Shown in pieces: positions 32,892 to 59,500 of a DNA stretch of 64,000 nt. The notes under the pieces were generated by a model, which was not told the DNA's origin, ran no database searches, and saw only the letters and a program-made list of their open reading frames with translations. Position 1 is the stretch's first letter. Each line of letters starts with the position of its first letter. The stretch comes from Pseudomonadales bacterium (GTDB lineage: Bacteria; Pseudomonadota; Gammaproteobacteria; Pseudomonadales; DC-out160): the NCBI GenBank assembly GCA_019090455.1, contig JAHRWA010000065.1, positions 1-64,000 of the forward strand, read 5' to 3'. Made by a program: the position numbers and the translations under genes.

Positions 32892-33146
32892 GCAATTTTC
32901 CCTTAGTCTGCTGTTTCCTGTGTGATCTCTTCTCAATTGTGGTAATTCATAACTAGTAATATGGGCTATATATTGAAGAGGTCAAGCTCTCGATACTAAC
33001 GATTAGTGCTAATGATGAAAAGAGATAAGCAGTCCTTTATTTTTGCATTAGCAATTTAATCGATACCCTGTTAATTGATCGATACCATGTTAAAATTACG
33101 ATCAATCCCACTGTCATCGCATTCAACCTATTCCCTAGTATTCAGT

Positions 33147-36100
33147 ATGCCGCCAAATCACTCCTTAGCACCGCTTTATCAAAATCTTGAACTCTGTATG
33201 GTCGTAGATCGTTTTCCAATACGCCAGCAAATCCGTCGTTTGAAAAAGCGGGCAGATCACCAGTCTGATGATTATGACAAGCAATACCAAAAAATTACGC
33301 AAAGAATCGAACGATCTAAAATGCGGGCCGACAACCGCAGGCAAGTGATCCCTGATATCGAATACCCCTCTGATTTACCCGTGTCAGCTCGAAAAGAAGA
33401 AATTCGGAAAATCATCAAAGATTCGCAAGTGGTGATTCTTGCCGGTGAAACCGGCTCTGGAAAAACCACACAATTGCCCAAGATTTGTTTGGAAAGTGGT
33501 TTAGGTATTTTTGGCGCCATTGCTCATACCCAGCCACGACGAATCGCCGCGCGAACTGTCGCGATTCGTATTGCGGAAGAAATGAAGTCGGAATTGGGCC
33601 AGTTGGTGGGCTATAAAGTCCGCTTTCATGAGCAAGTAGGTGAGCACTGCTTGGTCAAGCTGATGACAGACGGGATATTGCTGGCGGAAATTCAAAGCGA
33701 CCCTTATCTCAATCAATATGACACCATTATTATTGATGAAGCTCATGAGCGCAGTCTCAACATTGATTTCTTATTAGGGTATCTACGGCAATTATTAATC
33801 AAGCGTAAAGATCTAAAACTCATTATCACCTCCGCTACTATTGATGTGTCTCGATTTTCAACCCATTTTGCGGGCGCACCGGTAATCGAGGTGAGTGGCC
33901 GTACCTATCCTGTACAAATTGAATATCGACCCACTGCGGGTGAGGATGGCGAAGAGAGTACCGCTGATGTGGCAGAGGCCGTGCTCAATACGGTGAATGA
34001 AATCACTGGTGATGTACGTTGGCGATCCATCAAGGGTGCGCGGGATATTTTAGTTTTTCTCAGTGGTGAGAGAGAAATTAGAGAAACCGCAGTCGCCTTG
34101 AGAAAGCATGGGCCGAGTCACTTGGAAGTGTTACCGCTCTATGCCAGGTTAAGCCAGAAAGAGCAGAGCCGCATTTTTCATCCACGCGGTGGTCAGCGGG
34201 TTGTGTTAGCGACCAACGTGGCGGAAACCTCTTTGACTGTCCCGAATATTCGGTTTGTTATTGATACGGGTTTCGCCAGAATCAGTCGCTATAGCTTTCG
34301 CACTAAAATTCAACGGCTACCCATCGAACCCATATCACAAGCTAGTGCTAACCAACGCAAAGGGCGTTGTGGACGAATAGCCGATGGGATTTGTTTTCGG
34401 CTTTACTCTGAAGTGGATTTTAATCATCGGGATGAATATACCGATCCCGAAATTCTCCGCACTAATTTAGCCTCGGTTATTTTACAGATGGAGAGTTTAC
34501 GCCTGGGACATATCCATGAATTCCCATTTATTGATCCACCTGATCAACGCCTTATTAATGATGGTTATGGATTGTTGGAGGAGTTGTCTGCGACTGATAG
34601 CAAACGTAATTTAACATCGGTAGGTAAACAGTTAGCACGCTTGCCCGTGGACCCGCGAATTGGTCGCATGATTATTGCGGCGCAACAAACGGGATGTCTG
34701 CGGGAGATTATCATCATTGCAGCGGCTTTAAGCGTACAAGACCCGAGAGAGCGACCGCAAAATCATTCGCAGCAATCGGGTCAATCTGCCGAACAAAAAC
34801 ACGCTAGCTGGAAAGACAAGACTTCTGACTTTATGGCCTATGTCAATATGTGGAATGAGACAGAGGAGCAGCGTCAGACTTTAAGCAGTAACCAATACGC
34901 GAAATTCTGTAAAAAAAATCTCTTATCGTATATGCGGATGCGTGAATGGCGCGACGTGCATCGACAGTTGCGATTAGTCTGTAGTGATCTGCCGGGTAAA
35001 CAAAAGTTTACTGAAAATACAGAACCCGCCGGTAGTGATTTGGTGCATCAAGCATTGCTGTCAGGATTGGTCGCGAATGTGGCGATGAAAGATGAGGAGC
35101 GAGAATACCTGGGTGCGAGAAATCGGAAAATGTTTATCTTTCCTGGATCGGCACTGAGAAAAAAATCACCCAAATGGATTATGGCGTCAGAGATTGTGGA
35201 GACCAGTCGTGTCTTCGCGCGTACCGTGGCGAAAATTGAGCCGGAGTGGATTGAACAAGCGGCTGCGCATCTTCTCAAGTACCATTACTTTGAGCCTCAC
35301 TGGGAGAAAAAAAGCGGCAATGTCGTCGCCTTTGAGCAAGCCACACTATACGGCCTGATCATTAATCCTCGAAAGAAAGTGAATTACGGCCCTATTAATA
35401 CCAAGGAAGCGCGGGAGTTATTTATTCTCGCGGCTTTAGTCGCAGGTGAGTTTGAAACCAAAGGCGATTTTTTCAAGTACAACCAGCAGTGTATTCATGA
35501 GATCGATGAGCTGGAAAATAAATCTCGCAGAAGAGATATTTTAGCGGATGAGCAAGTGCTCTATGATTTTTACGATGCGCTTATTCCTGCGGATGTACAT
35601 AATCGTTCTAGCTTTGAAGCTTGGCGTCGAAAGGCGGAAAGGCAGAATGCAAAACTCCTGTTTATCTCAAAAGATATGTTGTTGGCTCGTGATACCGCTG
35701 ATGTGACTGAGGAGAAATTTCCAGACCAACTCATCTTAAACGGAATTCAGTTTGGCTTAAAATATCATTTTGAACCCGGCCATGAAGATGACGGTGTGAC
35801 GATTGTGGTGCCTGCTCCGCTATTAAAGCAGATTGATGCTGATCAGCTGGAATGGCTAGTGCCGGGTATGTTGAGAGAAAAGTGCATTGCTCTAATAAAG
35901 GGATTACCGAAAAAAATACGCAAGAACTTTGTACCCGTACCGAATCATGTAGATGGGTTTCTCGTGGCTGGCTATGAAAGAAATACGCCATTAACCACAG
36001 CGTTATCTGACTATTTAAGAAAAACCTCTGGTGTCACCATCTCTCAAGATCAGTGGCAATTGGAGGAGATAGAGCCTCATCATTTAATGCAGTTTGAAAC

Positions 36101-37160
36101 GGTGGATGAGAAGGGAGAACATGTCGGTAAGAGCCGTTCGCTCAGCGCATTACAGAGTGGCATAAAGCAGCATGTGGCAGCCACGTTGGCAGAGTTGCCG
36201 AAGATCGAGTTTCAGAAAAAGAATGTGACACGTTGGGATTCCGGTGATTTTCCCCGAGAATATGAAACACGTTTGGGGTCTCAGCTGATAAAAAGCTACC
36301 CCGCGTTTAAAGTGAATAGTGACTTGCCTAGTAAGGAAAGGTCTAATAAGAAAGGATCTAGCAAGGAAAAGTCTAATCGAGAGAAGACAGTTGACGTCTC
36401 TATTGAATTGTTCCCCACGGCTCTCGAAGCACAACAATCAATGGAGCAGGGGCTAATTCAGCTAGTTTATATTGAACTCAGCGAAAGCATACGTTACTTA
36501 AAAAAGAATATTAAACATATCAACGAAATGGCCATTGCCTATCGAGCTCAGGGTAATCAGCAACAAATGTTGGATGATATAATTCTGGCGGGTATTCGAC
36601 GTTGCTTCTTTGATAGCGCTCCCTTTAAAACCGATACCCTATGGCGGCAAGCTGATTTCGATGAAAACCTATCAAAGAACCGAAAGGAGTTTGTGACTGA
36701 GACTCAAGCCATAGCAGAATTGGTGTATGGGATTTTAAAACAGGCGCAAAAAATTCGTGGGCGATTAGGCAAATCGATCAAGCCCGAATGGCTGCATTCG
36801 ATCTCAGACATAAAGGAACAGATGGACCAACTTATCCAGCCCGAATTTATTCAAAATACGCCTGCGAAGTGGCTGCGACGTTTTCCTAAATATTTAGCTG
36901 GGATCGAATATCGTTTAGAGAAATTACAAGATAATAGAGCCAAAGATAGGGAACTGACTTTGGAATTGGCCACGCGATGGAAGGATTACCAGGCTGCCTG
37001 TCAGACTCTTAGCCTGAAAGGGATCGATGATTCTCGATTATTGGAATATCGCTGGATGATTGAAGAGTTTAGGCTTTCTTCGTTTGCACAAAAATACAAA
37101 ACTATTACACCCGTTTCAGCTACCCGATTAGATCGATTGAAATCCAAATTGATGGGGTGA
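33147..37160 (+). CDS. hrpA: ATP-dependent RNA helicase HrpA
   Basis: HrpA is a large DEAH-box RNA helicase linked to ribosome rescue and mRNA processing. The protein has Walker A GETGSGKTTQLPK, DEAHERSLNIDFLLGYL, SATIDVSRF, and motif VI QRKGRCGR, then the helicase-associated region and a long C-terminal DUF3418-type part. A charged stretch (SNKKGSSKEKSNREK) interrupts it at about residue 1080. Length (1,337 residues from ATG 33147) is close to E. coli HrpA. TTG 33075 and ATG 33087 are earlier possible starts; the chosen ATG lies just before the conserved N-terminal LAPLYQNLELCMVVD. Confidence 0.93.
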   Translation: MPPNHSLAPLYQNLELCMVVDRFPIRQQIRRLKKRADHQSDDYDKQYQKITQRIERSKMRADNRRQVIPDIEYPSDLPVSARKEEIRKIIKDSQVVILAGETGSGKTTQLPKICLESGLGIFGAIAHTQPRRIAARTVAIRIAEEMKSELGQLVGYKVRFHEQVGEHCLVKLMTDGILLAEIQSDPYLNQYDTIIIDEAHERSLNIDFLLGYLRQLLIKRKDLKLIITSATIDVSRFSTHFAGAPVIEVSGRTYPVQIEYRPTAGEDGEESTADVAEAVLNTVNEITGDVRWRSIKGARDILVFLSGEREIRETAVALRKHGPSHLEVLPLYARLSQKEQSRIFHPRGGQRVVLATNVAETSLTVPNIRFVIDTGFARISRYSFRTKIQRLPIEPISQASANQRKGRCGRIADGICFRLYSEVDFNHRDEYTDPEILRTNLASVILQMESLRLGHIHEFPFIDPPDQRLINDGYGLLEELSATDSKRNLTSVGKQLARLPVDPRIGRMIIAAQQTGCLREIIIIAAALSVQDPRERPQNHSQQSGQSAEQKHASWKDKTSDFMAYVNMWNETEEQRQTLSSNQYAKFCKKNLLSYMRMREWRDVHRQLRLVCSDLPGKQKFTENTEPAGSDLVHQALLSGLVANVAMKDEEREYLGARNRKMFIFPGSALRKKSPKWIMASEIVETSRVFARTVAKIEPEWIEQAAAHLLKYHYFEPHWEKKSGNVVAFEQATLYGLIINPRKKVNYGPINTKEARELFILAALVAGEFETKGDFFKYNQQCIHEIDELENKSRRRDILADEQVLYDFYDALIPADVHNRSSFEAWRRKAERQNAKLLFISKDMLLARDTADVTEEKFPDQLILNGIQFGLKYHFEPGHEDDGVTIVVPAPLLKQIDADQLEWLVPGMLREKCIALIKGLPKKIRKNFVPVPNHVDGFLVAGYERNTPLTTALSDYLRKTSGVTISQDQWQLEEIEPHHLMQFETVDEKGEHVGKSRSLSALQSGIKQHVAATLAELPKIEFQKKNVTRWDSGDFPREYETRLGSQLIKSYPAFKVNSDLPSKERSNKKGSSKEKSNREKTVDVSIELFPTALEAQQSMEQGLIQLVYIELSESIRYLKKNIKHINEMAIAYRAQGNQQQMLDDIILAGIRRCFFDSAPFKTDTLWRQADFDENLSKNRKEFVTETQAIAELVYGILKQAQKIRGRLGKSIKPEWLHSISDIKEQMDQLIQPEFIQNTPAKWLRRFPKYLAGIEYRLEKLQDNRAKDRELTLELATRWKDYQAACQTLSLKGIDDSRLLEYRWMIEEFRLSSFAQKYKTITPVSATRLDRLKSKLMG

Positions 37161-37404: not shown

Positions 37405-38043
37405 ATGATAGGTGGACTGCTAGTGACGAATTATTCTACTACTTTAGCTAATCGAGACAGAGGACGTTTAATCTCCTCGGGTTTTTCCTTAGTGGAGTTA
37501 ATGGTGACAGTGGCCATTGCCAGCATTTTGATGAGCGTGGCTGGACCGACGCTTATTACCTCGATTAAAAGCAACCGCCTTACTGCCCAAATTAACTCTG
37601 TTTCTGCCAGCCTTTTCATTACCCGTAGTGAAGCGGTCAAGCAGTCCACCAATACGCTAGTGATGTGTGCTAGCACCGACTCAGTTTCTTGCGATACCAA
37701 TAACTGGGAAAACGGTTGGATCATATTTATTGATGCTGACGCAGACAACACTTTAGATGTGGCTGAAGAGCTGGTTAAGGTGGTGACGCCGCTAGAAGGC
37801 GACAATAAACTTCGTACCTCCGGATTCACCAATCTTGGCCACCTCACTTTCGATAAAAACGGAATGCCCGATTCCTCCGGTACTTTTACTTTGTGTGATG
37901 ATCGAGGCGTTACCTTTGCTAAGGCGGCCATACTCAGCATCGTCGGGCATACCCGGCTTGGTGTGGATGAAGATACCGTTCCTGACGAAATCGTGAATGT
38001 CGATTCCGGTGCCAGTGGAGGAGTTAACGTAATATGTCCTTAA
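37405..38043 (+). CDS. fimU: Minor pilin FimU/FimT (first set)
   Basis: This is the first gene of a minor-pilin operon. The prepilin peptidase site is SSG|FSLVELMVTVAIASIL at about residue 26 with Glu5 of the mature protein, followed by a GspH/FimT-type body (ARSEAVK-like TRSEAVKQSTNTLVMCAS, then WENGWIIFIDADADNTLD). Minor pilins prime assembly of the type IV pilus and help present PilY1 at the tip. ATG 37405 lacks a good ribosome-binding site; a GTG at 37423 follows AGGTGG and may be the real start. Its end overlaps pilV by 10 bases. Confidence 0.88.
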   Translation: MIGGLLVTNYSTTLANRDRGRLISSGFSLVELMVTVAIASILMSVAGPTLITSIKSNRLTAQINSVSASLFITRSEAVKQSTNTLVMCASTDSVSCDTNNWENGWIIFIDADADNTLDVAEELVKVVTPLEGDNKLRTSGFTNLGHLTFDKNGMPDSSGTFTLCDDRGVTFAKAAILSIVGHTRLGVDEDTVPDEIVNVDSGASGGVNVICP

Positions 38044-38600
38044 ATCGTATGAGAAAAGTGAATCGGAACACAAATGTGAAACGGCAAAGACACCAAGCGC
38101 AATTGGGTTTTAGTCTGGTTGAATTGCTGGTGGCACTTATTATTTTTTCCATAGGCATGCTCGGTGCTGTGAGTCTGCAAATGACCGGGATGCAAAATAA
38201 TCAGAGTGCTTATATGCGGTCACAAGCTTCATCCCTGGCTGCTGAAATGGCGGATCGTATTCGTTCAAATTCCACTGCGGCCTTGGCGGGTAGCTATGAC
38301 AATTTTGATACCAATGCGACTTCCCCGGGAGATCCCGCTTGCACCACCTCCACGATAGGTTGCGGCGGCGCAGATCAAGCGACGACAGACGTTCGGGAGT
38401 GGAGTACCAACTTTAAGGATGTGGCGGGAAGCACGGCCAATTACATGGCGGTATTTCCCACAGGACGAGGCACCATTACTCGCGCCAATTCAGACCAATT
38501 TACCATTGCGATTCTTTGGGAAGAAACTGATTGGGACCCCGCCGACGCGAATAGTCGAATTGTGAGTAACCAAGCATTAGTTCTTAATTTTAGGTTATGA
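38034..38600 (+). CDS. pilV: Type IV pilus modification protein PilV (first set)
   Basis: The 188-residue protein has the pilin-like leader QLG|FSLVELLVALIIFSIGMLGAVSLQMTGMQNNQSAY, which is the PilV/GspI-like signature including the GMLG motif and the Asn-Gln segment. It is a minor pilin of the tip complex. The ATG overlaps the end of fimU, and its stop overlaps the pilW ATG, so translation should be coupled. Confidence 0.9.
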   Translation: MSLNRMRKVNRNTNVKRQRHQAQLGFSLVELLVALIIFSIGMLGAVSLQMTGMQNNQSAYMRSQASSLAAEMADRIRSNSTAALAGSYDNFDTNATSPGDPACTTSTIGCGGADQATTDVREWSTNFKDVAGSTANYMAVFPTGRGTITRANSDQFTIAILWEETDWDPADANSRIVSNQALVLNFRL

Positions 38601-39724
38601 GAATGTTGATAAAAAAACCGCAATTAATTAACACGGAAAACGTTAGGTCTATAAAACACAGGGCCTTAGGGAAGAACCAGAAGGGAGTGACTCTCTTTGA
38701 GTTGCTCATCGCTTCCGCTATGGGGCTGTTTATTATGGCGGGGGTTATGCAGGTGTTTTCTGATTCAAAACAAACTGCCCTGATTAATCGATCGTTGTCG
38801 AATATACAGGATAGTGGTCGTATTGCGATGAACTTACTGACAGATGATTTTCGGTTGATTGGTTATCAGGGCTGTGCTGACCCTGACATTATTCAACCGA
38901 ATATTATCGCGGTTCCTGCACCGACGGCTAATCTATATCAAACGGCGTTGCAAGCCTACGAAGTGACTGGCACAGGTTGGGCAGCGGGTACGGACCTAAC
39001 GGGTATTGATGGTACCGGAACTGCTCAAGCGATAGTGGGTAGTGATGTAATCACCGTTCAACGAGCCTCATCATCATCCATTGGGTTAACTGGTGTTATG
39101 ACAGCTGAGAATGCAAATATTCAAATTACTGGCAATAGCATTGGATTTCAGCAAGATGATATTGTGATGATTTCGGATTGTGAAAATGCCGATATTTTTC
39201 GTGTTACCAATACTCCCGGTACGTCGCCGCCAGTCACCTTAGCCCATGCTACGGGTAGCAATACCGGTCCCAATTTGGGCCAGATTTATTCTGACGATGC
39301 GCAAGTGATGTCTTTTATCTCTAACACGTACTTTGTCGGTGATACCGGTCGTACCAATGCTCAGGGCGACAACGTCAATGCGCTGTATTTGTTGGAGGCG
39401 GATGCGACTGACCCCCTCGAGCTAATTGAAGGGGTTGATAATATGCAGCTTCTATTCGGACAGCGTCTGAGTAACGGCAATCTGCGTTATTTAGCTGCTG
39501 ATAATACTGACATCGATTGGACCGCGATAGAAATTGTTAAGCTTTCTCTTTTGATCAGTAGTACAGAAGTAGGGCTGCCAGCTAATGATGAGAAAACCTA
39601 TCTTGTTGCGGGTGGAGATATTAAACCGGACAGTGATGGTTCCGCGACTCTAGTTTACACCAGTGATCGACGTATGCGTCGTGCGTTTAATAGCGCGATC
39701 ACGATTAGAAACCGTCAAGAATAG
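38597..39724 (+). CDS. pilW: Minor pilin PilW (first set)
   Basis: The 375-residue protein has the leader KNQKG|VTLFELLIASAMGLFIMAGVMQVFSDSKQT, with Glu5 present but Val rather than Phe at position 1. After this come SGRIAMNLLTDDFRLIGYQGC and a long beta-rich body typical of PilW. It starts four bases before the end of pilV (ATGA). PilW works with PilV, PilX and FimU in starting pilus assembly. Confidence 0.9.
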   Translation: MRMLIKKPQLINTENVRSIKHRALGKNQKGVTLFELLIASAMGLFIMAGVMQVFSDSKQTALINRSLSNIQDSGRIAMNLLTDDFRLIGYQGCADPDIIQPNIIAVPAPTANLYQTALQAYEVTGTGWAAGTDLTGIDGTGTAQAIVGSDVITVQRASSSSIGLTGVMTAENANIQITGNSIGFQQDDIVMISDCENADIFRVTNTPGTSPPVTLAHATGSNTGPNLGQIYSDDAQVMSFISNTYFVGDTGRTNAQGDNVNALYLLEADATDPLELIEGVDNMQLLFGQRLSNGNLRYLAADNTDIDWTAIEIVKLSLLISSTEVGLPANDEKTYLVAGGDIKPDSDGSATLVYTSDRRMRRAFNSAITIRNRQE

Positions 39725-39802
39725 AAACTGTTAAGAATAGAAAGTGTTAAGAATGCAAACGCGAAGAATAGTTGAGAGTGACAACCATTAAGAGGTATTA
39801 CC

Positions 39803-40303
39803 ATGAAGCAGAATAGAAAAGTAAATAGTCGGCGACCGACCTCTTTTGGTGGTAAGGAATCCGGTGCAGTGATGGCATTGAGTTTATCAATACTTTTGGT
39901 GCTGACGATTGTGGTCACAAGTTCTGCTAGCCATACCGCTTTGGAAGAGAAAATGGCATCGAATAATCAAAATAAAAACCTCAGCTTTCAAGCGGCTGAA
40001 AGTGCGGTGGACGGTACGATTTCTGACATCTTAGAGGGTGACGTGACGTTGATTGAGGATGCGCGGGTTGCGATGAGTCAATATTCTGGTCAGGTCTCAG
40101 TAGATATAGGCTCTTCCTATACAACGAGCTTGGCTCAAGTCCGATATGTGACTGAAATCTCCTTAACCAGCGGGCATTCTATGAATGCTGACAAGAGTGC
40201 GGTTTTACTTTCCGGCGCTCGATTTGAAGTGCTAGGTACCGGCGATATGGCCAGTGGTTCCAGCATAGAGACAGTGATTAAACAAGGCATCGATTACCGA
40301 TAA
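39803..40303 (+). CDS. pilX: Minor pilin PilX (first set)
   Basis: The 166-residue protein has a leader ESG|AVMALSLSILLVLTIVVTSSASHTALEEKMASNNQNKNLSFQAAESA, the PilX/GspK-like form without Glu5, and ends at QGIDYR. An AGAGG box lies 8 bases before the ATG. It is 78 bases after pilW and 50 bases before pilY1. Confidence 0.9.
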   Translation: MKQNRKVNSRRPTSFGGKESGAVMALSLSILLVLTIVVTSSASHTALEEKMASNNQNKNLSFQAAESAVDGTISDILEGDVTLIEDARVAMSQYSGQVSVDIGSSYTTSLAQVRYVTEISLTSGHSMNADKSAVLLSGARFEVLGTGDMASGSSIETVIKQGIDYR

Positions 40304-40353
40304 CTGATTACCGATAACCGATAAAAGATTTCCAATGCATGAGGTTTAAAAAA

Positions 40354-43300
40354 ATGATTTCATACAAATTGAAATTACCCAGTATCTGCTTAGGTGCTCT
40401 CATCTCCTTAGTCACCAGCTCGTTGGCTTGGAGTGATGACACGGAAATATTTTTTGGCGGTGCGGCTAGTGGTAGTTCCACTATTCGGCCCAATGTCTTG
40501 TTTGTTCTCGATACCTCAAGCTCGATGACATCGGTGGACGGTGGTAGTGTCAATAGGCTGGATAGAATGAAGGAGGCCTTACGTAATATTTTAAATGATT
40601 CCAATAATATTAACGTGGGCCTGATGCGATTTAGTAATCCGGGTGGGGCATTACTGTATCCGGTGAGTAATATTGATGAAGTCGTTTCTACCGTGACTCA
40701 AGGTAGCGTATCCGCACGAATTGCGGAAAGCGCAGATGATGCAGAACAGCTCTCGACGGGTGAGATGACTTTGGATAATACACAGTTATCACTCAACACC
40801 ATTGCCACTGGCGGCAGCAGTGGCGCTAGCATCGCTATCTCACGTCGTATCCAGAGTGGTACTGATGATGCGGAACAAAAACAAAATAATTCTATGTACC
40901 TGAACAGTTCCGATCTCGAGTTAATGAAAGACGGCAGCGATACTCAAAAAATTGGTTTGCGCTTCGATACCATGGCCATTCCTGTGGGCGCGACTATTGA
41001 GTCAGCGGAGCTTGTTTTTACTGTGGATGAAAAGAAGTCTGGAGCCATCGCAATTGAAATATCAGGAGAGCTAGCGGACACCGGCACGTTTGATAGTGAT
41101 TCAAAAGATGTGACCAATCGAACCCGCACCTCAGCATCGGTGTTATGGTCCATGGTGGATTCGGAGCCACCAGTGAATGATCTGATAACCAGTGATGACA
41201 TCACCAGTATTGTTCAGGAGATAGTGAATAATGGGGCTTGGGCTGCCAACAATGCGATTACGCTGATTTTAGAACGAGACAGTGGTTCTGGCCTTCGGAC
41301 CGTGGAATCATACGAGGGCGATGCTAGCGAAGCGGCTTTACTCAACGTGACCTATAACACAGGTCCTGCGATACCGGGTACGCCAGCAGAACAAACCGTT
41401 GGGTTGCGATTTCAAACCGTTCTTGTTCCTCAAGGGGCTACGGTGACCAGCGCAGTGCTTAATTTTACCGTTGCAACGCCCTCTAGCGGTCTCACCTCCA
41501 TGACGCTGAAGGGAGAGGGTGAGGATAATTCCGCTGCGTTCACTACTACAAATTCCGACATTACTACCCGTTCACCAACCAGCGCGGCAGTGTCGTGGTC
41601 CAATGCCGACGACTGGACCGTCGCTGATGAAATTAAGTCTAGCCCGGATGTGACCTCTATTGTGCAGGAAATTGTTAGTAGGGGCGGGTGGTGTGGGGGC
41701 AACGCTATGACTATTTTGATTAAAGGGCTCGTGACGAATACAGCCAGTCGGTATCCCTATACTTACGATGATTCACCCTCAAATGCGCCTGAGTTACAAA
41801 TTGAATATGATCCTAGCACTGTTCCTGCGGCGCCTCTCGGCTGTTTAGCGAAAGAATACACGGCACGTATCAGTTCGAGTACCGATGATGCGGAAGAAAC
41901 CAGTAGTGGTTCCATGAGTTTGACGAGTTCGGATTTAGAATTGGTCAACGATGGCAATGATCAAAAAGTGGGAATGCGATTTACCAATATGGATTTGGCC
42001 CACGGGGCGGTCATTACCAATGCCTACATTGAGTTCACTACAGATGAAACCACCACTACGGCCACATCTTTGACAATAAAAGGTCAAGATACCGATAGCG
42101 CAAATACCTTCACTAGTACAGATGATGACATCTCTGATCGAACGTTAACGTCTAGTAGCGTCGCTTGGACCAGCGTTAGCGCGTGGTCCACTGAGGGTGC
42201 AGTCAATAGAACGCCTGACTTAAAAACGATTGTCCAGGAAATTGTCGACCGAACGGGCTGGGCTGAAGGCAATGACATGGCCTTTGTCATCACCGGTTCC
42301 GGTAAACGTGTTGCGGAAAGTTATAATGGCAGTTCTGGCCAGGCAGCGAGATTGGTAGTTTGGGCAGAGAGTTCAGGTGGCGCTAGCTCTACCACTCGTA
42401 CTGTGAGAGATGAGTTGCTGGATTTGGTGGATGAAATTCAATATAAAAGTGGTACGCCTATTGTTGATACCCTTTATGAAGCGGCACTCTATTACCGTGG
42501 CGAAGACGTAGACTACGGCCTCATGCGAGGGGGTAGTAGTTCTAGTCGTCGGGAGCATACTCGAGTCTCACATGCTGATTCCTATACTGGGGGTACCTTA
42601 AACCAACCGAGTGGTTGTACTGATGAGAATTTGAGTAGCACTGCCTGTCGAGCTGAAAATATTTCAGGGACGCCCACTTATGAGTCGCCGATAACGGAAG
42701 CTTGTCAGACCAATCATATTATATTGCTCTCTGATGGTAGCCCCAGCGTAAATACCTCTGCGAGTAAGGTAAGAACCATGGCCGGGCTTTCTGGTTGTGC
42801 CGATAGCGGTAGTGCTGCGTGCGGCCCTGAGCTGTCTGCTTTCCTCTACAATGAGGATCAAACAGCATTGTCGGGCGATCAAACCATCAAGACCTATACC
42901 ATTGGATTTAATTTCACGGGTTCTTGGTTGAGAAGTATCGCTACGGGTGCGGGTGGTACTTTCTATGAAGCGGCGTCTTCTGCAGACTTAACGGATGCAT
43001 TTGAATCTATCTTTAGGGAAATGCTGCAAACGGATACCACTTACGTATCACCGGGCGTTACCATCAACAGCTTTACTCGTTTGACTCATCGAAACGAGTT
43101 GTACTACTCGCTATTTAAGCCGGATGAAAACCCGTTGTGGTCAGGAAATTTAAAACGATACAAACTGCAAAGCAACGCTGACATAATCGATGCCAATAGT
43201 AATGCGGCGGTGGACACAGCAACAGGCTTTTTCAAGTCAACGGCACAGAGCTTTTGGTCTAGTGTTGTGGATGGTTCCGATGTGACTGCCGGTGGTGCCG

Positions 43301-45021
43301 CTGAAAACCTCCCAACCGCAGCGCTGCGAAAAATCTATACCTATTATTCTTCGTCATCTTCAACAAATCTATCCAATGGTGTGAATGCATTTTCTGACTC
43401 GAATACAGCGCTGACGAAAACGTTGTTGGGAATTGGGTCAGAGTCAGATGCGTATCGTACTGACTTAGTGAATTGGAGTAGAGGTGTTGATGTATTAGAT
43501 GCGGATAACGACTTTAATACCACAGAAGACCGTAATCAACTCAGTGATCCATTGCATTCGCGCCCTCATTTGATTACTTATGGTGGCACTAATTTAAATC
43601 CAGATATCACTGTCTACTATGGCGATAACATGGGCTTTCTTCATGCCATTGACGCGGATACCGGCGAAGAGCTATTTTCCTTTATTCCCGAATTGCTACT
43701 GCCTAACTTAGATACCCTGTACACCAATTCAAGTGCTGATTCTCATCTCTACGGCATTGACGGTGCGGTGAGTTCTTGGGTCAAAGACGTGGATGGGGAT
43801 TCTACTATTGATCCGCTAGATGGTGATCATGCTCATCTTTATTTTGGTTTGCGTCGAGGTGGGAATAACTATTATGCCTTGGATGTGACAGATCGCTCTA
43901 ACCCTACAGTGCTATGGACTATTGAGGGTGGCAGCGGTGACTTTGGTAACTTGGCACAGACCTGGTCGCGTCCAGTGAATACGGTGGTCACCATTGGTAA
44001 CACTCAACACGATGTGCTTATCTTCACTGGTGGCTATGATGCGGATCAAGATGATGTATCGGTTAGAACCCCAGATAACGAAGGGGGTGCTATCTATATG
44101 GTTGATGCGAGCACGGGTGCCTTATTGTGGTCAGCGGGTACGAGTGTGCAAGATGACACTACCGTTAGCGATATGATTTACAGCATTCCCTCTTCGGTGA
44201 AGGCAATTGATGTGAATAACGATGGCCAGACAGATCAGTTTTATGTCGGGGATATGGGCGGGCAGCTTTGGCGGTTCGATATTACCCACGGTAATAATGT
44301 GAACTCCTTGGTGAGCGGTGGCGTTATAGCGGATATATCTGGCTCAAGTGCAGCAGATAATCGCCGGTTCTATCATGCGCCAGATATCTCAGTGGTTGTG
44401 AGCGACGCTGTGAGAAAACTTGCTATTACATTTGGCTCTGGTTGGCAGGCACATCCTCTCGATACAGGTACTGAAAATCGTTTTTACGCTATGTTTTCTG
44501 AAGACGTGACCTCTGCACCTGCGAGTTATATTAAATATACGGAATCGGATTTTTACAATGCGACCCTTGATACCCTCGATGTTGGGAGTGATTCGGCTCA
44601 AACGTTGGCTCAGGCTGAATTGGATTCTAAGCAAGGTTGGTACATAAAGTTAGAAAATGCCGGTGAGAAAGTATTGTCATCCAGTACCACTTCCAGTGGA
44701 ACGGTTTATTTTACGACTTATGAACCTACGCCGTCCGGCAGCTCTTGTATTGCTCAAGCGGGTACACCTAGGCTATACAAAGTGAATGTATCGGATGCAA
44801 CAGCAACAGAGGATTTGGATAATTCAGGTGACACGGATAATCTCACTAAGAATGATCGCTCTTATGTATTAAGAACTGCAGGATTACCGCCAGAACCCGC
44901 GCGGCTAAAAGTGAAAGATGCGGATGGAACGACTCGATCTGTATTGTGTGTGGGCACAGAGTGTGAAGCGATGGATGATAGTGGTTCCATCACCAAAACT
45001 TATTGGACTGTGGAAGAGTAA
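40354..45021 (+). CDS. pilY1: Large PilY1 pilus-tip adhesin with repeats inside its vWA domain (first set)
   Basis: PilY1 is the calcium-dependent tip adhesin and mechanosensor of type IV pili. This 1,555-residue version has a signal peptide, then a von Willebrand A start with MIDAS DTSSSM at about residues 53-58. The domain then breaks off: a partial repeat at about 121-145 and three repeats of 140-175 residues (about 163-335, 347-487, 503-671) follow, marked by STDDAEE, MSLTSSDLEL and IVQEIV. The vWA domain resumes at VRDELLDLVDEIQYKSGTPIVD. The C-terminal half is the PilY1 beta-propeller (LHSRPHLITYGG, calcium-like DVDGDSTIDPLDGD). ATG 40354 follows GAGG; ATG 40339 is an alternative. Normal PilY1 is much shorter. 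Confidence 0.92.
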   Translation: MISYKLKLPSICLGALISLVTSSLAWSDDTEIFFGGAASGSSTIRPNVLFVLDTSSSMTSVDGGSVNRLDRMKEALRNILNDSNNINVGLMRFSNPGGALLYPVSNIDEVVSTVTQGSVSARIAESADDAEQLSTGEMTLDNTQLSLNTIATGGSSGASIAISRRIQSGTDDAEQKQNNSMYLNSSDLELMKDGSDTQKIGLRFDTMAIPVGATIESAELVFTVDEKKSGAIAIEISGELADTGTFDSDSKDVTNRTRTSASVLWSMVDSEPPVNDLITSDDITSIVQEIVNNGAWAANNAITLILERDSGSGLRTVESYEGDASEAALLNVTYNTGPAIPGTPAEQTVGLRFQTVLVPQGATVTSAVLNFTVATPSSGLTSMTLKGEGEDNSAAFTTTNSDITTRSPTSAAVSWSNADDWTVADEIKSSPDVTSIVQEIVSRGGWCGGNAMTILIKGLVTNTASRYPYTYDDSPSNAPELQIEYDPSTVPAAPLGCLAKEYTARISSSTDDAEETSSGSMSLTSSDLELVNDGNDQKVGMRFTNMDLAHGAVITNAYIEFTTDETTTTATSLTIKGQDTDSANTFTSTDDDISDRTLTSSSVAWTSVSAWSTEGAVNRTPDLKTIVQEIVDRTGWAEGNDMAFVITGSGKRVAESYNGSSGQAARLVVWAESSGGASSTTRTVRDELLDLVDEIQYKSGTPIVDTLYEAALYYRGEDVDYGLMRGGSSSSRREHTRVSHADSYTGGTLNQPSGCTDENLSSTACRAENISGTPTYESPITEACQTNHIILLSDGSPSVNTSASKVRTMAGLSGCADSGSAACGPELSAFLYNEDQTALSGDQTIKTYTIGFNFTGSWLRSIATGAGGTFYEAASSADLTDAFESIFREMLQTDTTYVSPGVTINSFTRLTHRNELYYSLFKPDENPLWSGNLKRYKLQSNADIIDANSNAAVDTATGFFKSTAQSFWSSVVDGSDVTAGGAAENLPTAALRKIYTYYSSSSSTNLSNGVNAFSDSNTALTKTLLGIGSESDAYRTDLVNWSRGVDVLDADNDFNTTEDRNQLSDPLHSRPHLITYGGTNLNPDITVYYGDNMGFLHAIDADTGEELFSFIPELLLPNLDTLYTNSSADSHLYGIDGAVSSWVKDVDGDSTIDPLDGDHAHLYFGLRRGGNNYYALDVTDRSNPTVLWTIEGGSGDFGNLAQTWSRPVNTVVTIGNTQHDVLIFTGGYDADQDDVSVRTPDNEGGAIYMVDASTGALLWSAGTSVQDDTTVSDMIYSIPSSVKAIDVNNDGQTDQFYVGDMGGQLWRFDITHGNNVNSLVSGGVIADISGSSAADNRRFYHAPDISVVVSDAVRKLAITFGSGWQAHPLDTGTENRFYAMFSEDVTSAPASYIKYTESDFYNATLDTLDVGSDSAQTLAQAELDSKQGWYIKLENAGEKVLSSSTTSSGTVYFTTYEPTPSGSSCIAQAGTPRLYKVNVSDATATEDLDNSGDTDNLTKNDRSYVLRTAGLPPEPARLKVKDADGTTRSVLCVGTECEAMDDSGSITKTYWTVEE

Positions 45022-45050: not shown

Positions 45051-45521
45051 ATGAACAGTCGAATTGTTACGCGTCAACACGCAGGCTTTACCCTAATGGA
45101 ATTGATGATTGCAGTTGTGATCATCGGAATACTGGCTGCTGTCGCGACGCCGATATATATGGAAGGTGTAAAAAAATCTCGACGTTCAGATGCACAAGGG
45201 GCGCTATCCAGTTTTGCGTCGTCCATGGCGCGCTATCATACTCGAAATAATTTTTATACCGGTGCCGGTACAACAGGCGGAGGGGACACCGGTGCGCCCA
45301 CTATTTTTCCTACAGAATCACCGATTGACAGTGGAACGAAGTTCTATGACTTGACGATTGTGGCCGCGACTAGTTCAGCCTATACACTGCGGGCGACTCC
45401 AAAAAATGGTCAGGCAGGTGACGGTATCATTGAAATTAACTCTCTGGGAGTGAAGAGTTGGGATGAGAACGATGATGGAGATGTTGTCGATAGTGGTGAA
45501 AACGATTGGAGTAGAGGTTAA
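45051..45521 (+). CDS. pilE: Minor pilin PilE (first set)
   Basis: The 156-residue protein has a short leader ending HAG|FTLMELMIAVVIIGILAAVATPIYMEGVKKSRRSDAQGAL, the type IV pilin signature with Glu5, then a small globular body ending with SWDENDDGDV. It closes the first minor-pilin operon, 29 bases after pilY1, with AGGAATAG before the ATG. A hairpin at 45613-45653 follows. Confidence 0.9.
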   Translation: MNSRIVTRQHAGFTLMELMIAVVIIGILAAVATPIYMEGVKKSRRSDAQGALSSFASSMARYHTRNNFYTGAGTTGGGDTGAPTIFPTESPIDSGTKFYDLTIVAATSSAYTLRATPKNGQAGDGIIEINSLGVKSWDENDDGDVVDSGENDWSRG

Positions 45522-52886: not shown

Positions 52887-53238
52887 GGAGTCTTTGATGT
52901 CTGTCTCTTTCAGAATGCAGTCATGCCTGATGCAACGAACGTAGGGATCATCGCGCGGCTAATGTGGTGTATCGATTATACACTTTGAAATCAAAATTGG
53001 CGTGATTGCAACTGCCCTTTTCTTATTAAAAACACACCCTAATTCTTCCTTGTTATTTAGCTTTTTGTGGTGGTTTAGGCGAGGAGACCGTCTGAGTGGA
53101 AAACGTGTAACTTTGTCGGATATAGATCATTTAGTGATCTTGTTGGGTGCTGAAGCACAGAGCAAAATGACATCTGGGTCTATTCTGATAAGAAGTATTG
53201 ATGAACTCTGGTGGCTTGAGTGAATGAGGGAGCTTGAA
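52887..53238. other. Gene-poor stretch upstream of the second pilin operon
   Basis: About 350 bases between dusA and pilE. A 73-codon frame at 53002-53223 ends at the stop just before pilE but has a GTG start and no recognisable family, so I do not call it a gene. The promoter of the second pilin operon must be here. Confidence 0.4.
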
Positions 53239-53634
53239 GTGTTGGTGCTAAAAAAAGAAGTGGGTTTTAGCTTGATGGAGCTAATGATCGTGGTGGTGAT
53301 TGTTGGCATATTAGCTAGTGTTGCAGTGCCCGCGTATCAAGATTATATCCGTAGAGGTTTTCGAATGGATTCACAGAATTTTATGTTGGAAATTGCCAGC
53401 GACGAAGAGCGTTTTCTCATGGATGCGAGGGTTTACACCACCACTATCGGTACCGGGGGATTGGGCTTGAGCACACCTCCTAGAGTCAGTTCGCGTTATA
53501 ACTATGTTGTCACTATTGGCAGTGCACCGCCTAGTTTTTTAATTGTTGCGACGGCAATTGGATCACAGGTGGGTGATGGGGATTTAACGTTGGCTAGTGA
53601 CGGTACCAAAACACCTCTTGATAAATGGCAGTGA
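53239..53634 (+). CDS. pilE: Minor pilin PilE (second set)
   Basis: The protein (131 residues from GTG 53239) has KKEVG|FSLMELMIVVVIVGILASVAVPAYQDYIRRGFRMDSQ, the type IV pilin signature with Glu5, and a short PilE-like body ending TPLDKWQ. AGGGAG lies six bases before the GTG, whereas an in-frame ATG at 53224 has no such box. It begins the second minor-pilin operon; in the first set pilE is last. Confidence 0.88.
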   Translation: MLVLKKEVGFSLMELMIVVVIVGILASVAVPAYQDYIRRGFRMDSQNFMLEIASDEERFLMDARVYTTTIGTGGLGLSTPPRVSSRYNYVVTIGSAPPSFLIVATAIGSQVGDGDLTLASDGTKTPLDKWQ

Positions 53635-53755
53635 CGAGTGATGGCCGTCGTGAGAGATGGAAGTGGCGATAGATGATGGTGGATATAAATGTCAGAGTTG
53701 CCAATGAGAAGTGTAAATCGAAATGCGAATTTTCTTAATTGAAAGGCGATAAACA

Positions 53756-54262
53756 ATGATAGGTAAGCAACGTATATCGAGAAAAAGTTGTGGTGGATTT
53801 ACTGTTGTTGAATTGATGATAACGGCATCGCTAGCAATATTGCTCACCTCTGTTGGTACGCCCACTATGGTGACGGCGGTTCATAATAGTCAGGTGCGTA
53901 CCACCACCAATGATCTATTTGCTTCGCTACATCTCGCGAGAAGCGAGTCGATTAAGCGAAATGGCACAATCACTGTTGTGGCCAATAGTGGAGGCTGGGC
54001 TTATGGCTGGTCTATTCGCAGTGGTGCAACGGTGATACGTCAACAGGATGCGATAGAGGATTTGACTATCACTACTATTTCGGCTGGGGTCACTTCAATC
54101 GTATTCGATGCGGAAGGGCGTGCCACTAATACCAGTGCCGTGACGCTCGTAGTGAGTAAAACCAATTCATCTGCGATGATTAAATGCATCACATTGAGTT
54201 CAACGCAACGGGCGTTTGTTTTATCGGATAAAGACTACGATGGGGATTGCACGAATGGTTAA
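53756..54262 (+). CDS. fimT: Minor pilin FimT/GspH type (second set)
   Basis: The 168-residue protein has CGG|FTVVELMITASLAILLTSVGTPTMVTAV, a FimT/GspH leader with Glu5, and LFASLHLARSESIKRNGTITVVA. It is the counterpart of fimU in the first operon but only weakly alike in the body. AAAGG lies a few bases before the ATG. Its stop overlaps the likely pilV ATG. Confidence 0.88.
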   Translation: MIGKQRISRKSCGGFTVVELMITASLAILLTSVGTPTMVTAVHNSQVRTTTNDLFASLHLARSESIKRNGTITVVANSGGWAYGWSIRSGATVIRQQDAIEDLTITTISAGVTSIVFDAEGRATNTSAVTLVVSKTNSSAMIKCITLSSTQRAFVLSDKDYDGDCTNG

Positions 54263-54887
54263 TCAAAAAATGGCTTATAAATGCAGTACCCGTCAGCCGA
54301 AGGGGAAGTTACGTTGTGAAGGCTTGTCCTTGATCGAGATACTGGTGACGGTGCTGATCATGGCGCTAGGTATTCTGGGGGGGTTGAGCTTGCAAGGTAA
54401 AATGCAGCAATCGGGATACGAGGCTTACCAGAGAACTCAGGCGCTAATGTTACTGGAAGATATCGTCAATCGCCTTAACACTAATCGTGCTAGTGCACCT
54501 TGCTATATGTTTACTTTCGACACGACAACAGGAGTGCCGTACCTCGGTAGTGTTGGAGGTGGACATCTGGGAAGTCCTACCTGTTCGGGTTTTGGCGATG
54601 CCAATACGCAAGCGCTTGCTATGGCAGATATGCAAGAGTGGAATTTGCTAATGCAGGGAACGAATGAAATTGACAGCAGTGGAGTCGCAGTTGGTGGGAT
54701 TGTTGATGCACGAGGATGTATCAGCTTAGATGACAGCACAATTCCGCAAACCTATATCGTGTCTATTGCGTGGCAGGGATTAAATGAAACGGTTGTACCC
54801 AGTATCAACTGTGGTAACAATTTATATGGTGATGAAACGAGACGAAGAGTTGTTTCAACCTCAATTCAATTTGCGAGTTTACTGTAG
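54255..54887 (+). CDS. pilV: Type IV pilus modification protein PilV (second set)
   Basis: The protein (210 residues) has RCEG|LSLIEILVTVLIMALGILGGLSLQGKMQQSGYEAYQRTQALMLLEDIVNRLNTNR, the PilV signature. ATG 54255 overlaps the fimT stop by eight bases, mirroring the fimU/pilV overlap in the first set; earlier ATG 54240 and TTG 54216 are less likely. The end overlaps pilW. Confidence 0.88.
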   Translation: MVNQKMAYKCSTRQPKGKLRCEGLSLIEILVTVLIMALGILGGLSLQGKMQQSGYEAYQRTQALMLLEDIVNRLNTNRASAPCYMFTFDTTTGVPYLGSVGGGHLGSPTCSGFGDANTQALAMADMQEWNLLMQGTNEIDSSGVAVGGIVDARGCISLDDSTIPQTYIVSIAWQGLNETVVPSINCGNNLYGDETRRRVVSTSIQFASLL

Positions 54888-56071
54888 TGACGACAATTAA
54901 ATGGCGGATTCTAGGTCGCAAGCAAAAGATGAAGGGCAACCCAGTGAATAAGCGATATCAGATAAACGGTTTCACTCTTGTTGAGATGTTAATTAGTTTG
55001 TTGTTGGGTGTGATTGTGATGGAAGGGGTTCTGTCATCTTATTCTGATTCCAGTGCTGCGTATGCAGAGCTTCAAAAAAATACCAGCCGAAATGAAGATG
55101 GTCGATACGCATTGAACAGAATTAAAAATGATCTAGCTCTCGCGGGTTTTTATGGTGATTTCTATGATGAAACCTGGGGAGGAAGTGTTGTGCCGGACCC
55201 TTGCGTATTAACAGAAAATGCTATTCAAGCAGGTATGACTTTTCCCGTGCAGGCATTCGATATGGGAGTGATTAGTGTCAGCCCTATTAGTTGTTTAACA
55301 ACAAACGATTTGGTGGATAATTCGGATATTGTTGTGGTTCGCAGAGCCAATACCACCGTATTAGGAGCCGGTGTTTCACCTGTCGAAAATGAAATTTATT
55401 TGCAAGCAAACAGCTCCATCGCTGAGATTCAAACTGGCGTTGCTGCTGGGTTTGTCCTCGGTTCCTTGTTGCCGACTAACGCAGTGAATGCAGTGGGTAC
55501 CGATGCGGAAGGTAATGCAGCGATTATTTTGAAAAAATCGAACAACAGTGGCGCCTCACCGACGATACAAACTATGAGAATTGCCGCAGATATTCGAAAG
55601 TTCCATGTGCATATTTATTTTGTTGCTCCCTGTGCCGTACCAGTAGGAGGTGGATCAAATTGTACTGGATCGAGTGATGACAATGGTGATCCTGTACCGA
55701 CACTCAAACGACTAGAGCTGACTTCAGTTGGTGGTATAACGGTAATGAAAGTAGTCCCTATTGCACGAGGGGTAGATCGTATGGAGGTTGACTTTGGGTT
55801 GGATACAAGTGATGAAAATACAGTGGGTAGCGGTGTACCGAATAACTATACCACTACACCTACAGCGACGGATTGGGAAAATGTAATGACGGCAAAAGTG
55901 TCTCTATTAATGAGAAACGTGGATGCGACGGCAGCTCATAGTGATACCAAACGTTATAGCATGGGATTGTCTGGTTTTACCACAGCCACTAATGACAGTC
56001 ATCGAAGAAAGGTTTACAGCTCAACGATTCGATTGTCGAATATGTCGAGTCGTAGAGAGGCTGCTTTATGA
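54887..56071 (+). CDS. pilW: Minor pilin PilW (second set)
   Basis: The 394-residue protein has QING|FTLVEMLISLLLGVIVMEGVLSSYSDSSAAYAELQKNTSRNEDGRYALNRIKNDLALAGFYG, the PilW signature with Glu5. GTG 54887 shares its first base with the last base of the pilV stop; a later in-frame GTG lies nearer the leader. Its end overlaps pilX by four bases (ATGA). Confidence 0.9.
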   Translation: MTTIKWRILGRKQKMKGNPVNKRYQINGFTLVEMLISLLLGVIVMEGVLSSYSDSSAAYAELQKNTSRNEDGRYALNRIKNDLALAGFYGDFYDETWGGSVVPDPCVLTENAIQAGMTFPVQAFDMGVISVSPISCLTTNDLVDNSDIVVVRRANTTVLGAGVSPVENEIYLQANSSIAEIQTGVAAGFVLGSLLPTNAVNAVGTDAEGNAAIILKKSNNSGASPTIQTMRIAADIRKFHVHIYFVAPCAVPVGGGSNCTGSSDDNGDPVPTLKRLELTSVGGITVMKVVPIARGVDRMEVDFGLDTSDENTVGSGVPNNYTTTPTATDWENVMTAKVSLLMRNVDATAAHSDTKRYSMGLSGFTTATNDSHRRKVYSSTIRLSNMSSRREAAL

Positions 56072-56496
56072 AGAATCGGCAATCAGAATCGGGTTTCGTG
56101 ATCATCTCGGCTTTAGTCATATTGGTTGCGATGACCTATGTTTTAGTCTCATCAATTAATATCAACATGACGGACTTGAAAATTTCCAATAATGTCGAAT
56201 CGAAGAAGTTGCTACGTTTAAGTGCAGAGCAGGCCGTCGAACAGGTGTTGAATGATGTCGTCGCTTTTTCTACACCGGCGACACAGACCATTGTGGTGAA
56301 TGGTTACAGTGTGAATGTGAGTGCAGCGGAATGCAAGCGGGCTACCACTGTGAAAGGCTATAGCGCTGTCGCTTCTATGACATCTGAAAATACGGATTGG
56401 TCTTTTTCAGCTACGGCAACGGATACGGTGACTGGCGCGGAAGTCGAGTTGCATCAAGGTGTAAAAATTAAGTTGCTGTCGGACTCGTGCTTATAG
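56068..56496 (+). CDS. pilX: Minor pilin PilX (second set)
   Basis: The 142-residue protein has ESG|FVIISALVILVAMTYVLVSSININMTDLKISNNVESKKLLRLSAEQAVEQVLND, a PilX leader without Glu5. It overlaps the end of pilW (ATGA). It is shorter than the first-set PilX. Confidence 0.88.
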   Translation: MKNRQSESGFVIISALVILVAMTYVLVSSININMTDLKISNNVESKKLLRLSAEQAVEQVLNDVVAFSTPATQTIVVNGYSVNVSAAECKRATTVKGYSAVASMTSENTDWSFSATATDTVTGAEVELHQGVKIKLLSDSCL

Positions 56497-56547
56497 TTAA
56501 CCTTTTTTAGTCAAGAATGTTTATGAAAATAGGAAGTGGTGTGCATT

Positions 56548-59500
56548 ATGAATCATCTTCGAATTGTGAGTCGTAAATATTGGCAAACAGTGTTTTTTCT
56601 TTTTACTTTCGGTTTCATGTCTTCTGCTTGGGCAGAGGATATTGATATTTTTGAGAGTTCTATTGCGACTACTCCGAATTCAAATATTCTCATCATTATT
56701 GATAATACGGCAAACTGGAGTGCGTCAATATCTGGGCAGACTAAGTTCGCAGCAGAGATGACAGCACTAGACACTATAGTCAATGGGCTTGACGCAACTG
56801 TCAGCGTCGGCTTGATGATGCTAACTAAGCAAGGCTCAAATAATGGGGGTTATCTTCGTAAAGCAATATTACCGATGAACCCAGCCAATAGAAATAGCTT
56901 GAGCAATGTCATCACGTCGTTAAATATTAATAGTGATAAAACGGCAGGTAGTGCCGCTTATGGGTATGCGATGTTCGAAGCGTATAAATATTTTGGTGGA
57001 GGCAGTGATGGAGGTGCGCCTACTGAAAGCACACCGAACCCGCAAAGCGCGACTGAATATGGGCCTGAGGCTTACTTGGGATTCGGCGCTGGGGATAGGG
57101 ACGTTGATGCTTTTAAGGCATCCCCGACTAACGAATATGAATCACCTATTACCGATGCTTGTGCCCAAAACTTTATTATTCTTATTAGTAATGGTAGCCC
57201 TCCCACCAGTAGTGATAACGGTGCGGATACACTGTTGGCAAATGTAGGTGGGGATGCAACGGCAATTAGCTTAAGTTCGATACGTTCTACTGCCAATTTG
57301 GCAGATGAGTATGCCCGCTTTCTATATCAAACAGATGTGAGTACTGAGCTTGGTCAGCAAAATATCAGAACTTATACCCTGGCTGTGTACAACAGTCCCG
57401 CAACAGGACAAGATCCCAATAATATTTTGTTGATGGAAAGTGTCGCGGATAAAGGGCATGGGCTTTATTTTGCAGCGACCGATGCTGCGAGTGTTAGTAC
57501 TGCGCTTGATACTATTTTTGATGAAATTCAAGCAGTCAATTCGGCATTCTCTTCCGTCTCTTTACCGGTGAGTGTCAATGTTCGCGGTACTAATCTAAAT
57601 CAGGTCTACCTCGGCCTCTTTAGGCCTGATGCTAATGCTTTGCCGGGTTGGAAAGGGAATTTAAAACAATACCAGTTGGCCTTGAATAATTCGACGGGAG
57701 CTATCTATTTTGCTGATGCATTAGGGAATAACGCGATTAGTGCCACCACAGGATTTATCAATGACTCTGCTGTGAGTTTCTGGTCGGAAAATGAAGCCCT
57801 CGATTTTTGGACCTTCTCGCCTTCAGGCAATCCCATTTCTGATGCAGATGCACCCGATGGGCCTATTGTGGAAAAGGGAGGAGCGGCGCAGCAGTTGCGA
57901 ATGGATTTTCCTTCCTCTCATGTTTCACGCAATGTCTATACCTGTAATTCGGTATGCCAAGGATCGGTTAGTAAACAACTCTCCAGTTCCCCTTTTGATA
58001 CCAGTACGATTATAAGCACACCCGCGAATATTGCCGCATTTGGAGCAGCGACTGGCACAGAGATGGAGCAAATTATCGATTGGTTAAGATCAGAGGATAA
58101 TGAGGCAGACGAGAATAGCGACGGTTTCTATACGGATGTGAGAGCCTATTCCCATGCTGACGTTCTGCATTCGCGCCCTTCGGTGGTGAATTATAATCGG
58201 TTTGGTGATGACAATGACGTCATTGCATATTATGGCTCGAACGGTGGTCTGTTTAGGGCAGTTCAAGCGGGGCAGGCGAGTAATGGTGGTACTGAGCTGT
58301 GGTCTTACATTCCTGAAGAATTATTCGGTGAGATAAAACGATTGCGGGATAATAATGTAGGTATTAGCGCATTGAATCGGAAGCCGTACTTTATGGATGG
58401 CCCGGTTTCAGTCTATCAGCATGATGCGAATGGAGACGGTAAGTTAGTAGCCGCAGATGGCGATCTTGTGTATCTCTACATCGGTTTGAGGCGAGGTGGA
58501 CGATTGGTCCTTGCGCTAGATGTTAGTGACCCAAATGATCCCCGATGGTTGTGGCAAGCGGATAATACGACAACAGGCTTTTCGGAGCTCGGTCAGACGT
58601 GGTCCTTCATGAAACCGATTCAGATCAGTGCGATCAGCGACCCCGTATTAATATTTGGAGGTGGTTATGATGCTGCGGTGGATGATGCCGATCCCGTGGT
58701 GGCGGCTAATACGATGGGGCGTGCCATCTTTGTGGTGAATGCGCTAACTGGTTCGCTAATCTGGCAGGCAGGACCCAGTCCGTCGGGTGCCGGTTATGAT
58801 AGAACGGTATCCGATATGAACTATGCGATTCCATCGGATATGGCTGTCATTGATAGAGATCGCGATGGGACTTATGATCGTGCCTATGTGGGTGATACTG
58901 GTGGACAAATATGGCGTGTAGACTTTAGTCATGCAGCTCCCAGTAATTGGACAGTCAACAAAATTGCGACCTTAGGTTTTGATGCGACGTCAGATGATAA
59001 TGATCGGCGAAAGTTTTTGTTTCCACCGGATGTGTTGTATGCCGATGATGCAAACGGCGATTTTGATGCCTTATTGCTGGGTTCAGGAGATCGGGAAAAT
59101 CCTTTTAATGGACTGGGAACTGCCGCGTTTCCTTCTTCCGACGCAGTAGAAAATCATTATTATCTTTTAAAGGATCGAAGTACCGGCCTGACTTACAGCG
59201 GCTCTGTGATTGAATTGTCAGATTTGTACGACACGAGTGGGAATGATATTCAAGAGGGTAACGCTAGCGATCAAGCGGCAGCTGCGACTGCATTATTAGG
59301 AGCTAAAGGAGCCTATATTGTATTGGCTGATGGTGAGAAGGCGATTAGTGGGTCCGTGACGTTGAATGGCACTACTTATTTTAATACCAATCAACCCAGT
59401 AATTCGGTGAGTACAAGTTGTGCCAGTAACTTAGGCGTAGCTCGCCAATATCGACTGAATTTCACCAATCTCGCCTCGACAGTTGAAGGCTCAGGAAATG

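Follow-up and report, generated by a model that had tools for sequence, protein, structure and literature searches.

A domain nested inside its own homologue, within the von Willebrand A domain of a PilY1 pilus tip protein

The pilY1 gene in the window (the whole 64,000-nucleotide stretch of DNA analyzed here) encodes a protein whose von Willebrand A (vWA) domain is interrupted by three related domains, A, B and C. Their layout is vWA{A{B}A C}vWA, domain A being split by a complete B. The copies are beta-sandwiches like those of DNRLRE domains and of carbohydrate-binding module (CBM) family 96. Insertions in the vWA domains of pilus tips and the CBM96/DNRLRE fold were already known; homologous self-nesting inside a vWA domain, together with a natural copy-number series, appears to be new. 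We found no such combination in the open-license papers searched, and papers in which PilY1 and carbohydrate-binding modules are both named mention no insert of this kind in title or abstract. We also looked for named examples of domains nested in homologues, which turned up nothing useful, and we do not claim that self-nesting as such is rare.

A pilY1 gene in a minor pilin operon

The features are listed in Table 1. The pilY1 frame is one uninterrupted open reading frame (ORF) that begins at 40339; the start given in the original prediction, 40354, falls 15 bases inside it. Pfam searches with the 1560-residue protein returned T4P_PilY1 (PF05567; 5.7e-12) and VWA_2 (7e-8). The first match covered residues 1078-1320, in the C-terminal propeller that defines PF05567, and scored 45.7 bits against a cut-off of 28.1; the vWA match was confined to residues 52-145. 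The solved PilY1 structure 3hx6 also matched the propeller (E 5.9e-15). Pfam analysis of the neighbors gave the gene order fimT-pilV-pilW-pilX-pilY1-pilE, that of the usual minor pilin operon, so that the gene has the minor pilin neighbors typical of pilY1. The protein shares with PilY1 of Pseudomonas aeruginosa PA14 and PAO1 its nature as a tip adhesin, the N-terminal vWA domain with a metal ion-dependent adhesion site (MIDAS), the C-terminal propeller and the operon, but the PA14 vWA domain, residues 48-368 (PMC8806160), is too short for the array.

Another set of minor pilin genes (ComP-like, GspH, PilW and PilX) forms an operon at 53224-59697 on the forward strand, and its last gene encodes a 1053-residue PilY1-like protein lacking the array. 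With it, the PilY1-type proteins of the genome number at least three, carrying three, one and zero copies. Two other long ORFs of the window are unrelated to the array: 33075-37160 encodes a DEAH-type helicase with DUF3418, and 60785-63985 a biotin carboxylase/carboxyltransferase fusion.

Table 1. Features of the pilY1 locus, with residue numbers of PilY1 and positions in the window
Feature	Position	Strand	Evidence
Minor pilin genes fimT/gspH-type, pilV-like, pilW and pilX, upstream of pilY1	37405..40303	+	Pfam GspH, N_methyl/Tt1218-like, PilW, PilX_N
pilY1, encoding 1560 aa with a signal peptide, the interrupted vWA domain, a linker and the beta-propeller	40339..45021	+	ORF; Pfam; PDB match
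First half of the vWA domain (residues 50-118), comprising strand A, which carries MIDAS residues DTSSS 58-62, then helix 1 and strands B and C	40486..40692	+	Pfam VWA; model elements 11-16, 32-46, 51-56, 64-70
An, the N-terminal half of domain A (residues 119-155), with its first two strands and the SADDAE motif	40693..40803	+	Repeat profile 1-28; strand pLDDT about 83-88; conserved in relatives
Domain B (residues 168-342), a whole copy lying within A	40840..41364	+	Repeat profile 1-175; 8wab match; DNRLRE 1.2e-6, below cut-off; absent from L120
Ac, the C-terminal half of domain A (residues 351-495), with Cys452 of the WC motif	41389..41823	+	Repeat profile 34-175; prodomain structures spanning An and Ac
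Cys452 (WC motif) to Cys502 (A-C linker), likely disulfide particular to A	41692..41844	+	Inferred from Cys conservation
Domain C, residues 505-678: complete copy after A	41851..42372	+	Repeat profile 1-175
Second half of the vWA domain (residues 687-905), comprising helix 2, T706 of the MIDAS, helix 3, and strand D, which carries D799 of the MIDAS	42397..43053	+	VIA vWA alignment
PilY1 beta-propeller (residues 1056-1330 taken as profile)	43504..44328	+	Pfam; PDB 3hx6
pilE/comP-type minor pilin gene, downstream of pilY1	45051..45521	+	Pfam ComP_DUS 1.1e-18

One vWA fold closes around the insert

About 560 residues, close to the 550 or so first estimated, break the vWA domain between strand C (model residues 64-70) and helix 2 (model residues 648-658), ahead of T706, and the vWA sequence picks up again at V689, after copy C. 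We built an AlphaFold2 model of residues 42-905 (864 residues) with 29 relatives, which reached a mean pLDDT of 84. VIA-align matched a single vWA fold to it, aligning 185 residues between model positions 7 and 864 (Z 21.2, 2.3 Å). As this one fold aligns on both sides of the insert, the core is completed by sequence C-terminal to the repeats, and the original prediction of an array inside a complete vWA domain holds. So does its intact motif at the start of the domain, D58-T-S-S-S62, which belongs to a complete MIDAS set (D58, S60, S62, T706 and D799) spread over 740 residues. In the model, PilY1 has the complete Rossmann-like vWA fold with the DxSxS, T and D positions of the MIDAS. The site is empty in L021, a paralogue in the related genome G012, where the vWA halves are only 10 residues apart.

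A vWA domain also serves as an adhesive pilus module in PilB of Streptococcus sanguinis, a modular minor pilin whose structure (PDB 7b7p) aligned to the 864-residue model with a VIA Z score of 19.7. PilB has its vWA domain grafted on a pilin (PMC8179133) and is not known to carry a CBM-like array.

Domain A is split by a complete copy of its own homologue

The insert had been described as a partial repeat followed by three repeats, of which one lacked the first signature. The stretches are truly related: pairwise BLASTP gave 4e-29 for B-Ac, 6e-31 for B-C, 2e-28 for Ac-C and 9e-5 for An-B, with 35-43% identity over the three long pairs (B, Ac, C). They do not stand in a row, however, but form three domains, with B in the middle of A. 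Ac does lack the signature, because it is the C-terminal half of A, and the partial repeat, An, is the other half.

A linear reading, with partial, full, headless and full copies in succession, would make this a plain tandem array without nesting, its first repeat degenerated to a remnant and its third deprived of the initial strands; headless or decayed B copies do occur in Pseudomonas relatives. Four lines of evidence make this very improbable. First, with a profile built from the long copies, An matched positions 1-28 and Ac positions 34-175, two complementary parts with a whole B (1-175) between them. Second, An is kept across families, and its DDA motif is nearly invariant. Third, L120 (genome G328) lacks B, and its A runs without a break (profile 3-173), with C coming after it. 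Fourth, structures of known domains span both pieces. For this we used a second model, of residues 117-506 (A{B}A; mean pLDDT 89), to which prodomains of the TGF-beta type aligned over model residues 4-380, 2-381 and 1-377, with 138-141 residues at 3.4-4.4 Å (VIA). Such spans are expected for one domain built from An plus Ac. We rejected the tandem array on the complementary halves, the empty nest of L120 and the fold alignment.

An is thus predicted to pack with Ac as one domain, the contacts being taken from the alignment spans, and B sits in the loop after the second strand of A. The repeats fold in the AlphaFold2 model as separate domains, as the original prediction required, and these domains are beta-sandwiches. 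In a tree of the propeller region, L120 adjoins the B-carrying L037 (100/99 support) inside a group of B carriers, and this placement indicates that B was probably lost in L120. A separate group (L122, L123, L124, L076 and L079) has A and C without B. The paralogue in the genome of the window (L016, contig 54) has one copy only, its N-terminal part continuous with the remainder.

The order An-B-Ac-C recurs in many relatives. A cysteine motif, WC, marks 26 of 27 A copies and was found in 0 of 20 B and 0 of 25 C copies; Cys452 of this motif and Cys502, which lies in the linker between A and C, do not vary in an alignment of 29 proteins.

The copies resemble DNRLRE and CBM96 domains

A Pfam search with the repeats gave no significant domain. 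The top Foldseek match of the 864-residue model was 8wab, the chondroitin-sulfate-binding module of a chondroitinase (E 8e-6, probability 1.0), and the alginate-binding CBM96 module 7vbo (TM6-N4) also had a probability of 1.0; a search with the A{B}A model led to the same modules. VIA aligned 8wab to B alone in the A{B}A model (46-224; Z 14.5, 164 residues, 3.9 Å). It is the closest solved fold, at 18% identity and in another host protein. Copy B aligned to 7vbo with a Z score of 12.4 (3.6 Å, 156 residues), and thus has the beta-sandwich expected of a CBM96 module. A profile search of the PDB with the copies yielded only a designed propeller and PknD, which we rejected as short strand-motif matches.

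At the sequence level, the NCBIfam model DNRLRE_dom (NF033679) matched 24 of 50 sampled copies (best 2.4e-7). It covered copy B over nearly its full length at E 1.2e-6, with 28.7 bits, below the curated cut-off of 34 bits, and copy C did not match. Since the copies of the window fall below that cut-off, they are relatives of DNRLRE domains rather than filed members. Pfam CBM96 (PF24517; curated cut-off 26 bits), a family tied to DNRLRE (PMC9971899), matched neither the copies of the window nor any in the genus; it gave weak matches to 2 of the 50 sampled copies (best 8.9e-4).

The copies share the beta-sandwich fold with CBM96 and DNRLRE domains and differ in their scores below the curated cut-offs, in composition and in their location inside a vWA domain instead of an enzyme. 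They are acidic and lysine-poor (pI 4.05-4.19, with 3-6 Lys and 5-7 Arg each, figures that describe composition only), whereas the alginate-binding CBM96 has a lysine-rich groove (PMC9971899). As far as composition can tell, this argues against a simple copy of that alginate-binding module. The same sandwich also occurs in the TGF-beta-type prodomains, so that the fold alone is no proof of sugar binding.

A copy-number ladder among relatives

Copy number, which the original prediction had suggested comparing among strains, varies among relatives from zero to four copies in gaps of 10 to 743 residues between the vWA halves. The gap was 10 residues with no copy, 236-243 with one, 377-458 with two, 549-612 with three and 743 with four, the last in L038 from Motiliproteus coralliicola. 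Copies were counted by profile, which missed decayed ones in a few proteins (in L024 and L072, two were detected in about 610 residues). Certain PilY1 proteins without any detected copy hold other inserts at the vWA site. Both nested copies of L038 are of the B class, indicating that B was duplicated within the nest, and in L142 and L143 (2047 and 2136 residues) B is itself interrupted, a further level of nesting. The array would have grown by whole-domain steps, including the insertion of a homologous domain into A. What interrupts B in L142 is a short beta module whose sequence is of the GTGAGQVRTITAYNGGTRVATV type and occurs twice.

The layout is old and widespread

The layout is old, since in a tree of 90 copies those from the same position fall together (11 changes, with a mean of 49 after shuffling); B lay closer to C, and to copies from proteins other than PilY1, than it did to A, many of the forks being weak. 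Recent amplification is ruled out by the identity of the copies (35-43%) and by this grouping across species. A recent foreign origin is unsupported: GC content is 0.47-0.50 in the array against 0.45 in the window, and GC3 is similar.

A first scan of contigs with the single PilY1 protein as query found no relative. With the array profile, matches were found in 25 of 391 genomes of the order sample and 40 of 369 of the class sample, which are upper figures for the array, as part of them are copies outside PilY1. Many gammaproteobacterial families share the nested layout, which therefore does not set this genome apart; among the named carriers are Methylococcaceae, Motiliproteus, Endozoicomonas, Sedimenticola and several Pseudomonas species. 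A profile search of the genome of the window found the domain only in two PilY1 proteins. The closest copies outside PilY1 belong to metallophosphoesterases that are secreted and to further surface proteins from Bacteroidota, Campylobacterota, Actinomycetota and Gammaproteobacteria. Among these metallophosphoesterases, L051, L060, L059, L065 and L069 carry close relatives of the domain in one or two copies.

Possible functions of the array

PilY1 determines both the targets to which type IVa pili attach and the way in which surfaces are sensed. Longer reach, ligand binding and altered force response had been proposed as effects of the array, and each may apply. We think it rather probable that this PilY1 is a type IVa tip adhesin in which the vWA domain would serve as scaffold for a removable, ligand-binding CBM-like array, with A as host, B nested and C following, and with load coupled to the vWA domain. 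The modules would bind extracellular ligands, most likely glycans of the biofilm matrix or of host surfaces; given the CBM fold, ligand binding, probably of a glycan, at the pilus tip is the best guess. The array is anchored at both ends in the vWA fold, so that pull on a bound ligand would pass into the vWA/MIDAS region, which PilY1 of P. aeruginosa employs for surface sensing, and the cysteine pair of A would stiffen the exit from A. In P. aeruginosa PA14, a cysteine of the PilY1 vWA domain affects surface signaling (PMC8806160).

ComC of Acinetobacter baumannii is likewise a type IVa tip adhesin with an insertion in its vWA scaffold that alters adhesion, twitching and transformation; the inserted finger is required for adhesion, twitching and DNA uptake (PMC10374093). 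It is a 90-residue tyrosine-rich beta finger (PMC10374093), compared with about 560 CBM-like residues, one domain nested in another, in PilY1 of the window.

The array might instead be mainly a mechanical spacer that lengthens the tip or tunes the force response of the vWA domain, with no ligand of its own. Length steps of whole domains, the strong divergence between copies, their acidic composition with few lysines, the anchoring of both ends in a force-sensing domain and a conserved cysteine motif in A only would all suit a spacer. We nevertheless regard it as unlikely, because modules with this fold bind ligands, which are polysaccharides for the nearest solved relatives, and a nested B would add little reach compared with a tandem copy. 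Still lower in probability is a protein or cell-surface partner, or contact between pili, with variation arising from selection by phages, predators or hosts. BMP and TGF-beta prodomains, which are related sandwiches, bind proteins. The ComC insertions vary between strains and condition adhesion to host cells (PMC10374093). The conservation of the layout across many families, on the other hand, points to a general rather than a host-specific partner.

For a ligand-binding array, a broader view can be offered only tentatively: gammaproteobacteria may use the vWA domain as a docking scaffold and stack CBM-like domains in it by homologous nesting, some species nesting further modules, to give an evolvable, force-coupled ligand-binding tip in which gain and loss of whole domains would change specificity and mechanics. 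To judge from its recurrence in related bacteria, the array has the look of a tunable grip for the tip of the pilus. A removable, conserved CBM-like set in the vWA domain is a concrete candidate for a ligand-binding part, including in several Pseudomonas species; the natural variants with 0, 1, 2, 3 and 4 copies are a ready-made series for work on adhesion and force sensing; and the nesting of a domain in its homologue, for which a relative with an empty site exists, is a clean case of how domain insertion arises.

In the Pseudomonas relatives L058, L061, L063, L066, L068, L070 and L072-L075, the nested B is strongly decayed (profile scores of 3-30 bits), with A and C well preserved. Judged by sequence, B in these proteins looks as if it had diverged toward another role.
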